NCBI GenBank assembly: GCA_003646415.1
Contig: QNFS01000002.1
Location: 1-47,713, forward strand
DNA length: 47,713 nucleotides
Direction: 5' to 3'
From: Gammaproteobacteria bacterium
GTDB taxonomy: Bacteria > Pseudomonadota > Gammaproteobacteria > Pseudomonadales > Halieaceae
A program made the position numbers and the translations under genes. The notes under the pieces are model-generated. The model saw nothing but the letters and a program-made list of their open reading frames with translations. It made no database searches and was not told where the DNA came from. This document shows positions 31,501 to 35,262 of this stretch, in pieces (position 1 is the stretch's first letter; each line of letters opens with the position of its first letter).

Positions 31501-32269
31501 CGAACTTTGTGATTACCCGGGCGAAGCCCGCCTGCGCCATCGCCTGGGCGTATTGCGTTTGTTGCGCCTGGGCAGTGCACAGCAGGTGAAGTATCTGCGT
31601 AAGCAGGTGCTGCGCGGTAACGAGTTCAATCTGGTGCTGGCGGGAGCCGGCCTGGACCGGACTGCCCTGCTTGAGGATCTTATCGATGCGGCTTATGTGC
31701 AGGCCATGAGCCTGGACCAGGACCTACCCTTTGCCGAAGATGCATTTGCCGCGGCACTGGCCCGGGGTAAGAGCGAGGTGATTACCCGCGCTAATGAGAT
31801 GGAGACTGTACTACTGAATGTCCTTGTGGTTCTGGCCGAACTGCGGCACAAACTGGCCGGCCTTGAAGCGGGCAAGTGGCTGGATTTCCGGGAGGATGTC
31901 GAGCGGCAGCTACAGCGTTTATTGCAGGCGAGGTTTCAGCGCGATACCCCCTGGGAGTGGTTGTCCCAGTATCCACGCTACCTGAAAGCCCTGCGGTCCC
32001 GGGCGGAGCGTCTCGGTGGGCAGTATGCCAAAGACCAGAAGAACACGGCACTGCTGCAAAAGCTGGCCCAGCCCCTGTGGGATTCGGTAGCGGATAGGCC
32101 CGGATTGCTTCTACTGTGCGCGCCGGCCAGCCAATATCGCTGGATGTTGGAGGAACTGCGGGTGTCTCTGTTCGCACAAAACCTTGGGACGCGGCAGGCG
32201 GTGTCTGAAAAGCGCTTACAGGAACAGTGGCGGGCCGTGCTTCAGTGGCTGGATATAAACCCGCAATAA
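28511..32269 (+). CDS. hrpA: ATP-dependent RNA helicase HrpA
   Basis: This 1252-residue DEAH-box helicase shows motif I 'GETGSGKTTQLPKICLELGR', motif II 'IIIDEAHERSLNIDFLLGYL', motif III 'LIITSATID', and motifs V-VI 'ATNVAETSITVPGIRYVIDPG' and 'QRQGRCGRVEAGVCIRLYSE'. The long C-terminal DUF3418 region typical of HrpA is present. It unwinds mRNA and ribosome-bound RNA. The first match to other HrpA proteins begins at about residue 12. The usual N-terminal 70-80 residues are missing, and a TGA stop at 28475-28477 blocks extension upstream. The ATG at 28511 has no good ribosome-binding site, so the true start is uncertain. Confidence 0.93.
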   Translation: MMQDPGGYERRVPQIIYPQELPIAERREEIARAICDNQVVIIVGETGSGKTTQLPKICLELGRGRRQLIGHTQPRRLAARTVAQRIAHELNTELGELVGYQVRFTDKVSQGTAVKLMTDGILLVEMQRDRLLRKYDTIIIDEAHERSLNIDFLLGYLKRILPERPDLKLIITSATIDVQSFSRHFDGAPVIEVSGRTFPVQTLYLDSSEDKEEGVQGQIVSLVEDIDAGQFGLRGDTLVFLSGERDIRELARALRRVTSLDILPLYARLSQAEQNRVFDISRRRGTRIVLATNVAETSITVPGIRYVIDPGEARISRYSYRTKVQRLPIEPISQASANQRQGRCGRVEAGVCIRLYSEEDFKARPEFTDPEIKRTNLAAVVLQMLTLGLGEVENFPFINPPDSRLVRDGYKLLEELGAVSAAGKLTQVGKRMARLPVDPRLARMVLAAADQGCLEEILVITSALTVQDPRERPADKQQQADQMHARFRHPRSDFMAWLTLWQYYEQQRQVLSQNQLRKLCKREFLSFMRMREWRDIHRQLSIACRAQKLKPRAAIPQEENYQGVHVALLNGLLSNIAQFDEGREYLGSRNRKLQIFPGSSQARKKPKWLVAAEIVETSRVFAREVGAIDPRWVIGINPGLLKHHYSQPRWQSRSGRVMAYERLTLYGLTVVDKRSVHYGPLAPTESRTLLIREGLIAGNYRQYPAFLKHNRGLVRQLEELESRTRRRDILADEQVLFEFYDERLPIDAYTAGRLQSWLKHNPDGERALHMERENLLARDPGAGVGEQFPDHLQWQDIRFKLSYQFEPGKAADGVSVTVPVALLNRVPRFRFDWLVPGLLREKCIALVKGLPKEKRKRLVPAPDYVDKALAQLLTQRQPDNVDLLDALSRCLASLGGVALGRDDWALEKLDDYYRMNVRVVDAQGHLLQQGRDLGELIERFRADTRQSISSSEQKSPAREGVSRWDFGELPREWRFRQAGVDIVSYPALVDKGQTVAIELCDYPGEARLRHRLGVLRLLRLGSAQQVKYLRKQVLRGNEFNLVLAGAGLDRTALLEDLIDAAYVQAMSLDQDLPFAEDAFAAALARGKSEVITRANEMETVLLNVLVVLAELRHKLAGLEAGKWLDFREDVERQLQRLLQARFQRDTPWEWLSQYPRYLKALRSRAERLGGQYAKDQKNTALLQKLAQPLWDSVADRPGLLLLCAPASQYRWMLEELRVSLFAQNLGTRQAVSEKRLQEQWRAVLQWLDINPQ

Positions 32270-32313
32270 ACAGGGTTATTTTTTTGAATATTTTTGCCCC
32301 CGATAAGATAGAA

Positions 32314-32345
32314 TTGAAACTTACACACAAACATCGTGTCATAAT
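32314..32345 (+). promoter_or_regulatory. Candidate promoter of the bufferin/HvfABC operon
   Basis: In the gap after hrpA, TTGAAACTT (32314-32322) is followed by CGTGTC (32335-32340) and CATAAT (32340-32345). GAAACTT with a downstream GTC at 17-base spacing resembles ECF-sigma promoters, a class reported to control some bufferin operons. TTGAAA with a -10 at 18-20 bases could also be a poor sigma-70 promoter. The choice is unresolved. Confidence 0.4.
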
Positions 32346-32428
32346 TACCACGAATGCTTGAGGTGGCGGTGGTCTCCGGGGCACGTCGATTGGTATTACA
32401 ACACTAAATGACTTACAGGGAATACATT

Positions 32429-32857
32429 ATGACTTCAATTAAAAAACCTCTCGCTGCCGCTCTGGGCGCAGCATTCCTGGCGACTTCCATTGCTCCTGTG
32501 GTATCCGCCGAAACTAATCCGTTCTCCGCGCAGCAACTCAGTGGTGGTTACGACCTCGCCAGCTATGGCAAGGACGGCGAGGGCAAGTGCGGCGAAGGCA
32601 AGTGCGGTGACAAAAAGGCCAAAGGCGAAGGCGAAGGTAGCTGCGGCGATGACAAGGCCAAAGGTAAAGGTGAAGGTAGCTGCGGCGATGACAAGGCCAA
32701 AGGTAAAGGTGAAGGTAGCTGCGGCGATGACAAGGCCAAAGGTAAAGGTGAAGGTAGCTGTGGCGATGACAAGGCCAAAGGTAAAGGTGAAGGTAGCTGC
32801 GGCGGTGACAAGGCCAAAGGTGAAGGCAAGTGCGGCGAAGGAAAGTGCGGCAGCTAG
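32429..32857 (+). CDS. Bufferin/HvfA-type RiPP precursor with expanded Cys repeats
   Basis: This 142-residue precursor has a Sec signal peptide ([18 protein letters not shown]), a short leader ('[19 protein letters not shown]') and a repetitive core. Two EGKCG motifs open the core, five EGSCG motifs follow in a 13-residue [13 protein letters not shown]-type repeat, and two EGKCG motifs close it, giving nine cysteines. In HvfA/bufferin peptides the motif cysteines are converted to thiooxazole-type heterocycles by a DUF692 oxidase with a DUF2063 partner, and the product binds copper. The two partners follow immediately here. The AGGGAA site precedes the ATG at 32429. EGSCG and this repeat number are unusual. 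Confidence 0.9.
32636..32830 (+). repeat. Five tandem 39-bp coding repeats in the RiPP precursor
   Basis: Units begin at 32636, 32675, 32714, 32753 and 32792. The first three are identical, the fourth differs by one C-to-T change, and the fifth is diverged at its 3' end. Identity at the DNA level, including synonymous sites, points to recent expansion by slippage or unequal recombination. Each unit adds 13 residues and one modifiable Cys motif without changing frame. Confidence 0.95.
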
Positions 32858-32859
32858 AA

Positions 32860-33711
32860 ATGCCTGACCAACACCAGGAATTCCACGGAGCGGGTCTCGG
32901 CCTGCGGCGGGCCCTTTTGGGCTCGCTGCTATCCATGAACCAGGGAGCGGTAGACTTTATGGAGGTCGCGCCGGAAAACTGGATCGGTGTCGGCGGTCGT
33001 TTTGGCAAGCAGTTTCGGCAATTGACAGAACGCTATCCGGTTATTTTACACGGTTTGTCACTGGATATTGGTGGACCCGATCCTATCGATACGGATCTGG
33101 TGCGCTCAGTGCGGGACCTGATGGGCGAGATGGACGTACCCCTTTACAGTGAACATCTCAGTTATTGCGCTGCACAGGGGCATCTCTACGACCTGTTGCC
33201 CATCCCGTTTACCGAGGAGGCTGTACACCATGTGGTGGCCCGGGTGTGCCAGGTGCAGGACATCATAGGGCAAACGATAGCCCTGGAAAACGCCTCCTAT
33301 TACGCTCAGCCAGTGGCCCAGTTAAGTGAGGCGGAATTTATCACTGCGGTGATTCAGGAGAGCGGTTGTGACCTACTGCTGGATGTGAACAACATCTATG
33401 TGAATAGCATCAATCATCGCTACGATCCGCTCGAATTCCTCGATTCCCTGCCCCTGCAACGGGTTCGTTATATCCATGTGGCAGGGCACTACGATGAGGC
33501 CGAAGACCTGAAAGTGGACACCCACGGAGCCGATGTCATCGATCCGGTCTGGGCACTGTTGGCGGAGGCTTACCGACGGCTGGGCCCCCTGCCGACCCTG
33601 CTGGAGAGAGATTTCAACCTGCCACCCCTGGATGAACTGCTACAGGAAGTCACACAGATTCGCGAAATGCAGTGCGTGAGCCAGGGCGTCCAGGTTGAGG
33701 CGGTGGGTTAA
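32860..33711 (+). CDS. DUF692 multinuclear iron oxidase (HvfB/BufB-type, MbnB-related)
   Basis: This 283-residue TIM-barrel enzyme has the DUF692 metal ligands in order: 'FMEVAPENW', 'HGLSLDIGG', 'YSEHLSY', 'ALENASYY', 'DVNNIYVN', 'IHVAGH', 'DTHGADV' and '[10 protein letters not shown]'. Members use two or three iron atoms and O2 to remodel Cys residues of precursor peptides, as MbnB does in methanobactin synthesis. The ATG at 32860 is 2 bases after the precursor stop; a longer frame from 32830 would overlap the precursor. It overlaps the partner gene by one base. Substrate is inferred from the adjacent Cys-repeat precursor. Confidence 0.93.
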
Positions 33712-34472
33712 TGACTGTATCGGTACTAAAAGACAGCCAGCTGACGATGGCGCGCTATCTGCGAGACCCGCAGCGACAGCTGGCGCCTGCGGGTGTGGAG
33801 CCGCGACGCCTGCAGATTTACCAGGATCTGGTTTACAACAATATCGAGGGCTTTATCAGCGGTGGATTTCCCGTGTTGCGCAGCCTGTACCAGGATTCCG
33901 ATTGGCACCAGCTTGTCCGCACGTTTATCGAGGGGCACCGCTGCCATACACCCTACTTTCTGGAGATCAGTCAGGAGTTCCTGCAGTTCCTGATGCAGGA
34001 CTACAGCCCCCGCGACTGCGACCCACCGTTTATGGTGGAACTTGCACACTACGAATGGGTGGAACTCGCCCTCGATGTCTCACAGGAGGTACTGCCGGCG
34101 GCCGTTGCTGTAGACGATATGCTGGCCACCGTGCTGCAGCTTTCTCCTCTGGCCTGGCTGCTCAGCTACCAGTTTCCAGTGCACAGGATCGGCCCGGGCT
34201 TCAGGCCTGCCGAGGTGGTGGAGCCCACGTATCTGGTGGTGTACAGGGATAGAGAAGACACGGTTCGGTTTATGGAGCTGAATGCGGCGACGGCCCGTCT
34301 GGTGGAGATAATCAGGGACAACAGCACTGCCACGGCGGTTGAGTTGCTGGTAGAACTGGCTGGTGAATTGGGCATGGCCGAGGAGTCGATACTCGCCTAT
34401 GGTGCAGAGCAACTTCAGCAACTGATTGCACAATCTGTGGTACTAGTCACAGATCACGGAAATCACGCTTAA
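33711..34472 (+). CDS. DUF2063 partner protein (HvfC/BufC-type)
   Basis: This 253-residue protein has an N-terminal DUF2063 domain ('YLRDPQRQLAPAGVEPRRLQIY', 'LVYNNIEGFISGGFPVLRSL', 'EGHRCHTPYFLEISQEFLQFL') and a C-terminal wing-like domain ending in 'QLLIAQSVVLV'-type sequence. DUF2063 proteins bind the DUF692 oxidase and the precursor leader and are needed for modification. The ATG shares one base with the hvfB-like stop (TAATG), indicating coupled translation. No DoxX-type fourth gene follows; the next gene is an MlaA homologue. Confidence 0.9.
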   Translation: MTVSVLKDSQLTMARYLRDPQRQLAPAGVEPRRLQIYQDLVYNNIEGFISGGFPVLRSLYQDSDWHQLVRTFIEGHRCHTPYFLEISQEFLQFLMQDYSPRDCDPPFMVELAHYEWVELALDVSQEVLPAAVAVDDMLATVLQLSPLAWLLSYQFPVHRIGPGFRPAEVVEPTYLVVYRDREDTVRFMELNAATARLVEIIRDNSTATAVELLVELAGELGMAEESILAYGAEQLQQLIAQSVVLVTDHGNHA

Positions 34473-34524
34473 TCGATGGTTGATCCGCTCACAGCCAGCG
34501 CGTAGTATTCGGTTACCATTGGTA

Positions 34525-35262
34525 ATGGTTTGTCTTTTGATGACCCTATCACGCTACCTGCTGACCCTTTTGCTGACTTTCCCTATGGCTTCGGCCGGGG
34601 CCTTGGAACAACAAAAAGACATCGATCCCTGGGAATCGATGAACCGCCGTGTGTTCGTCTTCAATGAAACTCTCGACAAGTATCTGCTGAAGCCGGTAGC
34701 CAAGGGCTATCGCTTCATCATGCCCGACCCCGCAGAGCGCAGTGTCACCAATTTTATCGCCAATATCTATGAGTTCAATACGATTATTAACTCACTGTTG
34801 CAGGGCCACCCTGGAAATGCCTTCCATAGTGGCGGGCGCTTTGTAGTGAATACCACCGTGGGTTTGCTCGGTTTCTTTGATGTAGCCTCCCGGATGGAGC
34901 TTGATCACCGGCCTGCGGATTTTGGCCAAACCCTGGCGGTATGGGGTTTTGACAGCGGCCCTTTTATCGTGGCGCCCTTGATAGGCCCCCGTACCTGTCG
35001 CAGCTTAACGGGCTACTTTTTTGATACCTATACCTCCCTTCCGGCTCTGAACGACGACACGGAACTGGCCTATATCTTCTGGACCGTGGAGGTTATCGAT
35101 ATCCGCGCGCGCCTGATTAAGGCAGAAGATTTGATCACTGGTGATCGCTACATCTTCATACGGGACGCCTATTTGCAACGACGCGAGGCCTTCGTAAATA
35201 ATGGTGAGGTAGAGGACAGCTTCTCCGATTTTGAAGAAGATGACGACTGGGAGGAGTTTTGA
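34525..35262 (+). CDS. mlaA: MlaA/VacJ-family outer-membrane lipid asymmetry protein
   Basis: The core matches MlaA throughout: 'DPWESMNRRVFVFNETLDKYLLKPVAKGYR', 'RSVTNFIANIYEFNTIINSLLQG', 'RFVVNTTVGLLGFFDVAS' and 'DFGQTLAVWGFDSGPFIVAPLIGP' (read in parts), plus an acidic C-terminus. MlaA removes misplaced phospholipids from the outer leaflet together with the Mla pathway. The N-terminal hydrophobic region (LLTLLLTFPMASAGA) has no lipobox cysteine, unlike E. coli MlaA, so it may be a cleaved non-lipidated form. The start is uncertain: ATG at 34525, ATG at 34540 or TTG at 34480. Confidence 0.9.
   Translation: MVCLLMTLSRYLLTLLLTFPMASAGALEQQKDIDPWESMNRRVFVFNETLDKYLLKPVAKGYRFIMPDPAERSVTNFIANIYEFNTIINSLLQGHPGNAFHSGGRFVVNTTVGLLGFFDVASRMELDHRPADFGQTLAVWGFDSGPFIVAPLIGPRTCRSLTGYFFDTYTSLPALNDDTELAYIFWTVEVIDIRARLIKAEDLITGDRYIFIRDAYLQRREAFVNNGEVEDSFSDFEEDDDWEEF

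Follow-up and report, generated by a model that had tools for sequence, protein, structure and literature searches.

Our analyses indicate that a stretch of 47,713 nucleotides from a Gammaproteobacteria bacterium (assembly GCA_003646415.1, contig QNFS01000002.1, positions 1 to 47,713 of the forward strand; the whole of this stretch is referred to as the window) carries an hvfABC operon, three co-directional genes at positions 32429–34472 of the + strand, whose precursor peptide HvfA is built of two back-to-back EGKCG motifs, five isolated EGSCG motifs set in 13-residue units, and again two back-to-back EGKCG motifs. Comparison with relatives reveals that adjacent motifs mostly retain the Lys next to the Cys, which isolated ones have often lost, a point that appears to be new and is well supported by the counts given below. 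Taking the locus as a whole, we consider it probable that the nine Cys of HvfA become 5-thiooxazoles, that Sec exports the peptide, which then binds Cu(I), and that Lys is under strong constraint only where motifs stand back to back. The features of the operon are as follows.

32429 to 32857, + strand: hvfA, precursor peptide of 142 amino acids with a Sec-type start and nine CG motifs (NF050137, 39.4 bits against a cut-off of 19.5)
32516 to 32557, + strand: conserved leader element of 14 residues, a proposed HvfC recognition sequence, from column conservation
32579 to 32608, + strand: first adjacent EGKCG pair (10 residues), from motif reading
32609 to 32803, + strand: five 13-residue units with one isolated EGSCG each, from Tandem Repeats Finder and motif reading
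32822 to 32851, + strand: last adjacent EGKCG pair (10 residues), from motif reading
32860 to 33711, + strand: hvfB, MNIO-family enzyme (DUF692) expected to form 5-thiooxazoles (PF05114, 349.9 bits; HvfB model NF003818, 432.8 bits against a cut-off of 360)
33711 to 34472, + strand: hvfC, DUF2063 partner protein (PF09836 and PF22106 above cut-off; NF050145, 309.5 bits against a cut-off of 142)

A first-pass annotation had placed a Sec-exported nine-Cys precursor, followed by DUF692 and DUF2063 genes, at exactly these positions, and both the coordinates and the description proved right when set against open reading frames, Pfam and NCBIfam. Likewise its account of the core, a 13-residue unit repeated five times with EGSCG in the central motifs and two EGKCG on each side, is confirmed by the motif positions (EGKCG at residues 51 and 56; EGSCG at 69, 82, 95, 108 and 121; EGKCG at 132 and 137) and by Tandem Repeats Finder, which places the array at 32615–32826 with a period of 39 nt, 5.4 copies, 95% matches and a score of 382, far beyond chance. 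Four of the 13-residue units are alike, three being identical at the DNA level and one carrying a synonymous TGC/TGT change, and the first unit of the array diverges more than the other four. The N-terminal 27 residues are of Sec type as judged by eye (a basic start, a hydrophobic stretch and VSA before Glu), and are followed by a conserved stretch of 17 residues and then by the nine-motif core; since HvfA has no Cys before residue 54, it has no lipobox. Within an alignment of 13 close-relative precursors, 12 of the 14 columns of the leader element are invariant or nearly so, and a loose form of it, NPF...L..GY, occurs in 178 of the 215 precursors considered below. The two downstream genes overlap, hvfC beginning within the hvfB stop codon (TAATG). 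In the genome to which the window belongs (87.8% complete) we found one MNIO gene and, at E values up to 0.1, no second precursor of the HvfA type. AlphaFold, run on HvfA with the 13-row alignment, gave no fold (mean predicted local distance difference test score 41.8), a result unusable as a model, and 13 sequences say little.

By its profile matches the locus is an ordinary member of the HvfA/Buf_EGKCG 5-thiooxazole family, that is, an hvfABC (captophorin; Buf_EGKCG/oxazolin) operon. The label ‘bufferin/HvfABC’ that it was first given stands in its second half, HvfB exceeding the cut-off of the HvfB model as listed, but fails as bufferin in the strict sense, since the BufB-type MNIO model NF050167 gave 276.4 bits, under its cut-off of 310; ‘bufferin’ fits loosely, and captophorin or Buf_EGKCG/oxazolin would be the precise class. 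In NCBIfam, HvfA matched the KCGExKCG domain NF050137 and the full-length oxazolin HvfA model NF050188, the latter at 36.4 bits and under its cut-off of 95, and nothing else, the Buf2 6/12-Cys profile not having been sought by name; no Pfam family, DUF2282 of the Buf1 precursors included, matched HvfA at E values up to 1. The Arg-Arg and Asp-Phe residues of the substrate site are present in HvfB, whose nearest solved chain is 3bww, and the only solved relative of HvfC is 3dee, structures that PMC12668002 links to the captophorin system. A methanobactin MbnB-type enzyme was also considered and was rejected, TIGR04159 giving only 46.5 bits against a cut-off of 325.

The dependence of Lys on motif adjacency was established from 263 loci (given by L numbers, and genomes by G numbers, where they need telling apart). 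Sixteen of these lacked an MNIO by text pattern and 32 lacked a precursor of at least two motifs, leaving 215, which were reduced to 193 (118 in a first set and 75 class-wide) by the removal of MNIOs more than 97% identical; the MNIO text pattern also left out L143, a member of the taxonomic family. The class-wide set derives from 119 loci over cut-off in 116 genomes besides our own (117 of 369 genomes in all); among the matched genomes listed, none besides our own is of that taxonomic family, and groups other than this family may be shared with the first set. With the motif defined as [EDQ]xxCG and an isolated motif as one without a neighbour motif at five residues, the pooled counts of Lys beside the Cys are 178/330 for isolated motifs (54%), as against 494/531 for the first of a run (93%), 41/46 for the middle and 506/531 for the last (95%). 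Compared within precursors of both sets, non-Lys residues are in excess among the isolated motifs in 48 cases and among the adjacent motifs in 3, with 52 ties. Of the 65 first-set precursors that contain motifs of both sorts, 36 have the excess among the isolated motifs, none has it among the adjacent ones, and 29 are tied; in the class-wide set (38 precursors with both kinds), for which the rule was predicted before the sequences were read, the effect is weaker (12:3, 23 ties, p = 0.035), and among class-wide members whose MNIO is less than 75% identical to any in the first set it is 10:1 (13 ties, p = 0.012). When each MNIO cluster is given one vote, clustering at 80% identity yields 26:1 (30 ties) and clustering at 75% yields 15:1 (20 ties).

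The effect is confined to one position and is not a general decay of isolated motifs. Counted position by position, in 179 precursors and with any CG accepted as a motif (hence the higher numbers), the ratio of isolated to adjacent excess is 9:6 (85 ties) for position 1 (Glu), 15:8 (77 ties) for position 2 (Gly) and 52:3 (45 ties) for position 3; 14 precursors starting at a contig end were dropped, among them L109, which is cut only near its start and would have favoured the rule. Ahead of the variable position, isolated motifs retain Glu in 95% and Gly in 90% of cases, the Cys-Gly being fixed by the motif definition. These results bear on a neutral explanation in which a Lys-to-Ser mutation in a single founding unit was multiplied by tandem duplication, so that the rule would mirror nothing more than array growth. 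Such a course would fit the near identity of the array copies at the DNA level, the wholly different arrays of two species of one genus, and arrays that share one variant throughout (for example, four isolated EGNCG motifs in L109), and at 70% identity there are not enough clusters for significance. Against it, the same direction is seen in many lineages (26:1 among the 80% clusters, and, for Ser in isolated motifs, no fewer than 16 changes, gains or losses, along the MNIO tree), the count outside the family (defined as L001–L017, L021, L069 and L083–L144) is still 16:3 with 37 ties for exact EGxCG motifs, and founder effects alone should strike positions 1 and 2 as well. We therefore regard the neutral course as somewhat unlikely.

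Several observations nevertheless weigh against a strict constraint on Lys in adjacent motifs. Non-Lys residues occur within a run in 30 of the 183 precursors that have runs, which takes a minimum of 22 changes along the MNIO tree (for comparison, isolated motifs carry non-Lys in 54 of 113 precursors, with 28 changes); Ser occurs within a run in 10 of 193, including L026, L063 and L218, where Ser makes up all or most of the runs; three class-wide precursors show the opposite direction; and with MNIOs clustered at 70% identity the ratio is 5:0 with 4 ties, which is not significant (p = 0.06). Judged from these comparisons, the Lys-adjacency rule is a strong tendency with departing lineages.

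The EGSCG motif of the central array had been taken to be unusual, with the proviso that homologues carrying it might be common and already characterised. It does recur in relatives. Of the 140 genomes searched from the taxonomic family, 63 encode an HvfB that passes the model cut-off; they supply 64 loci, in 61 of which a script recognised a precursor, and 16 of these 61 precursors have at least two isolated Ser motifs; isolated motifs are present in 113 of the 193 distinct precursors, and in 29 of the 113 (L050 counting here only owing to a contig end) one or more carries Ser. What stands of the claim is that we found no description of EGSCG arrays, nor of the Lys-adjacency rule, in the accessible parts of the open-access literature on MNIO peptides, supplements excluded. 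The nearest relative, L002, belongs to the same genus and has 92% MNIO identity over the aligned core, and in its array five Ser motifs and one Asn motif stand alone and a further Ser motif adjoins a Lys motif, the spacing being mostly 9 residues in place of the 13-residue units. Bracketing by pairs of EGKCG on both sides is also found in L005, L106 and L119. The near-identical copies, together with the different array in the nearest relative, support the earlier suggestion of recent expansion; the unit that was multiplied to give the central Ser array would be one with a single motif, and on this comparison the array is a recent, local version of a design that recurs. L109 has the same bracketed layout with isolated EGNCG, so that Asn can fill the place of Ser.

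Since the source assembly is a draft (367 contigs, 87.8% complete, 6.2% contaminated) and the array is 212 bases long in 39-base units, a miscount is possible, and the true array could be longer, shorter or variable. That five copies are an assembly artefact is, however, highly unlikely in our view, given that other assemblies also contain isolated Ser arrays of a similar kind and that the copies here carry distinguishing differences. A switch in enzyme specificity behind the Ser type was considered separately and rejected: Arg-Arg-Asp-Phe, the residues that PMC12668002 connects with substrate choice, is present in 127 of 129 MNIOs (an exploratory set with looser de-duplication) and so does not track with the Ser type, and the two that depart from it are L002 (Tyr for Phe) and L144 (Ala; sequence cut short).

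Whether the Ser motifs are processed is addressed most directly by precursors that have no KCG at all. There are three among the 179: L026, with eight EGSCG and one EGNCG; L218, with six EGSCG; and L121, with seven EGSCG and one EGHCG, all isolated and without an adjacent pair. HvfC adjoins in all three, and their HvfB proteins keep 23 near-invariant His/Asp/Glu/Asn columns, save for one Asp to Asn in L218. Because these precursors retain HvfB and HvfC, EGSCG is very probably a real substrate. Considering additionally that FonBC, the enzyme pair of the Fontimonas FonABC system, is reported to accept Ala, Arg or Thr at the Lys position (PMC12668002), with Phe or Glu severely impairing and Pro not accepted (PMC12668002, PMC13097082), we expect with good confidence that all nine Cys of HvfA, those of the Ser motifs included, would be modified. 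Three points count against this expectation and the functions that we attach to it. FonBC modified a short substrate with two motifs but not one with a single motif (PMC12668002), so that isolated motifs could be poor sites; the characterised precursors with a readable layout (HvfA, the FonA peptides and one MmrA) have adjacent motifs; and the related operon mmrABC stayed silent in its native Microbulbifer host under the conditions that were tested (PMC12538549).

An earlier suggestion was that the peptide may have two classes of modified site. What holds is that Lys depends on motif adjacency; this does not show that the two classes differ in chemistry, and the same ring on all nine Cys is the simplest expectation. 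In the strong form of a chemical difference, only the four adjacent EGKCG Cys would become thiooxazoles, Lys being kept where modification takes place, and the five isolated EGSCG Cys would stay thiols, binding metal or forming disulfides. The two-motif requirement of FonBC and the loss of Lys mostly from isolated motifs would agree with such a division. We think it distinctly unlikely, considering that L121, all of whose eight motifs are isolated and lack KCG, is still adjoined by HvfB and HvfC, that L026 and L218 likewise lack KCG, that FonBC tolerates replacement of Lys, and that isolated motifs retain a Glu and a Gly for which bare thiols would have no need.

In the mechanism that we favour, with all nine Cys carrying the same ring, HvfC would hold the leader of HvfA, probably through the conserved NPF...L..GY stretch, and HvfB together with HvfC would oxidize the motif Cys to 5-thiooxazoles with the loss of four hydrogens each; by analogy with its relatives, modified HvfA would be exported by Sec and bind Cu(I) in the periplasm, and its role may be protection against copper or oxidative stress. 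Isolated motifs could shed their Lys, a strong constraint acting only where motifs are back to back, where Lys may aid the enzyme when the neighbouring site is already modified, or may counter the charge where two rings, spaced by five residues, hold Cu(I). A different charge effect, in which Ser would take the place of Lys wherever the spacers provide enough of it, appears extremely improbable: the HvfA spacers are indeed Lys-rich (KAKGK) and the core net charge per motif is near zero (0.11), but the median spacer Lys/Arg content is 0.27 in Ser-rich precursors (n = 22) as against 0.31 in Ser-free, isolated-rich ones (n = 36; p = 0.65), and the net charge per motif is lower in the Ser-rich group (−0.41 as against 0.83).

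Tentatively, we also put forward a positional grammar, which we hold as possible and no more firmly than that. Back-to-back EGKCG motifs with a fixed Lys would constitute one class of site, which might nucleate processing or form Cu(I) sites of two rings, the Lys ammonium compensating for a negative bis-thiolate, and isolated motifs with a free position 3 would constitute a second class, which might extend, link or tune the peptide. The layout of HvfA, two Lys motifs, five Ser motifs and two Lys motifs, presents a clear natural case of both kinds of motif in one chain. The Lys-adjacency rule offers a handle on whether isolated Cys are processed like paired ones and on how copper is held, and HvfA would be a convenient test object, as trypsin should free most Ser sites as separate one-Cys peptides.

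Upstream of hvfA, two further elements can be placed.

32316 to 32343, + strand: ECF (extracytoplasmic function) sigma-like promoter GAAACTT-N15-GTCATA, proposed from conservation; the sole exact match in the window and in its own genome
32416 to 32422, + strand: ribosome-binding site CAGGGAA, read from the sequence

Among 21 upstream regions CAGGGAA is present in 12 and ACAGGGA in 13. A relaxed form of the promoter lies upstream of 29 of 58 precursors of the family as delimited above and 18 of 118 others, and is present in 0.1% of simple shuffles of the upstream regions; in 46 of the 47 hits the gap is 15 nt. The exact pattern was found in six of the 11 genomes searched (G106 of these being without a listed HvfB), five times upstream of hvfA and once elsewhere, and a reversed control pattern had one match in the same 11 genomes, in G001; with one mismatch allowed, our own genome has three sites as against two for the control. 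At L270 (G027) the exact pattern stands just upstream of a frame that by eye resembles an M48 metalloprotease, and not of hvfA. Scanning 32200–34620 for sigma-70 promoters yielded a single site, which lies within hvfB on the minus strand; shuffled sequence gave 1.5 on average. We suggest that hvfABC is likely to be controlled by an ECF factor. No cognate factor was found among the four Sigma70_r2 matches of our own genome, three of which were viewed by eye without a family search, one resembling an RpoH fragment and two resembling ECF factors without a visible link to hvf. In Neisseria meningitidis the sigma-E operon NMB2140-2145 is described with a −10 element CGTCTAA, a −35 element GTMAGBWTT and a spacer of 12–13 nt (PMC2893595); the GTC of the promoter here resembles that −10 element, whereas the −35 element and spacer differ. 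From the gonococcal span NGO1948-NGO1943 and the Pfam name NGO1945_C borne by HvfC, we infer that NMB2140-2145 includes the Neisseria hvf genes.

Directly downstream of hvfC lies one further annotated gene.

34480 to 35262: mlaA (PF04333)

Among 80 relative loci an mlaA-like sequence is present in 39, hvfC in all 80 and the upstream gene in 4, and the association of hvfABC with mlaA may be an old neighbourhood. Upstream of hvfA is the end of a long frame that by eye encodes an HrpA-type helicase. Of other loci, the L156 precursor has EF-hand-like calcium loops (by eye) between its groups of CG motifs, as against after them in published chimaeras, and at both L039 and L079 the matched MNIO is preceded by a pair of precursor-like genes that share a strand. 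Far from the operon, at positions 293–328, the window contains a perfect hexamer repeat, TGATAA, in six copies.

Finally, the locus can be set beside known systems as far as the accessible text of the cited accounts describes them. With more than 20,000 examples, captophorins rank among the largest classes of modified peptides in bacteria, and fontiphorin, oxazolin and gonophorin contain 5-thiooxazoles (PMC12668002). In the Microbulbifer MmrABC/bulbicupramide system each of six Cys loses four hydrogens; the modified peptide binds Cu(I), and E. coli co-expressing precursor and enzymes grows better in 2 mM CuSO4 (PMC12538549). Our operon shares with it the order of precursor, MNIO and DUF2063 genes, a conserved leader and a variable repeat core, and the MmrABC precursors likewise have five to eight Cys in EGKCG units; unlike HvfA here, they are described as EGKCG units, the one studied consisting of three two-Cys cassettes, and the accessible part of that description makes no mention that we found of an isolated EGSCG array (PMC12538549). 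Fontimonas FonABC, which forms seven 5-thiooxazoles (PMC12668002, PMC13097082), is similar in its Lys-Cys group and in an MNIO with the same Arg-Arg and Asp-Phe residues (PMC12668002). The FonA sites are, in contrast to those here, grouped in twos or threes, judging from digest peptides (PMC12668002, PMC13097082), and its tolerated replacements of Lys are engineered variants only, where Ser is natural here (PMC12668002). Oxazolin HvfABC of Haemophilus influenzae has the same three core genes and, after reassignment, a 5-thiooxazole, but its HvfA has three 11-residue units with six Cys and its operon includes a DoxX-like HvfX (PMC13419390); no DoxX gene adjoins the operon here, one lying on another contig. 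About 2,000 Buf_EGKCG precursors have been described, of 31 to 506 residues and with up to 58 Cys, and the first of their two types consists of 17-residue units with two EGKCG each (PMC12452194). HvfA resembles these in its EGKCG motifs and in a repeat number that varies, and differs in its 13-residue units with one EGSCG and in having no AlphaFold fold, where one mid-size protein of the 17-residue type, longer than HvfA, was modelled as a beta-helix (PMC12452194). Set against these systems, the Ser array is best described, from its sequence context, as a recurring variant within a known kind of system.

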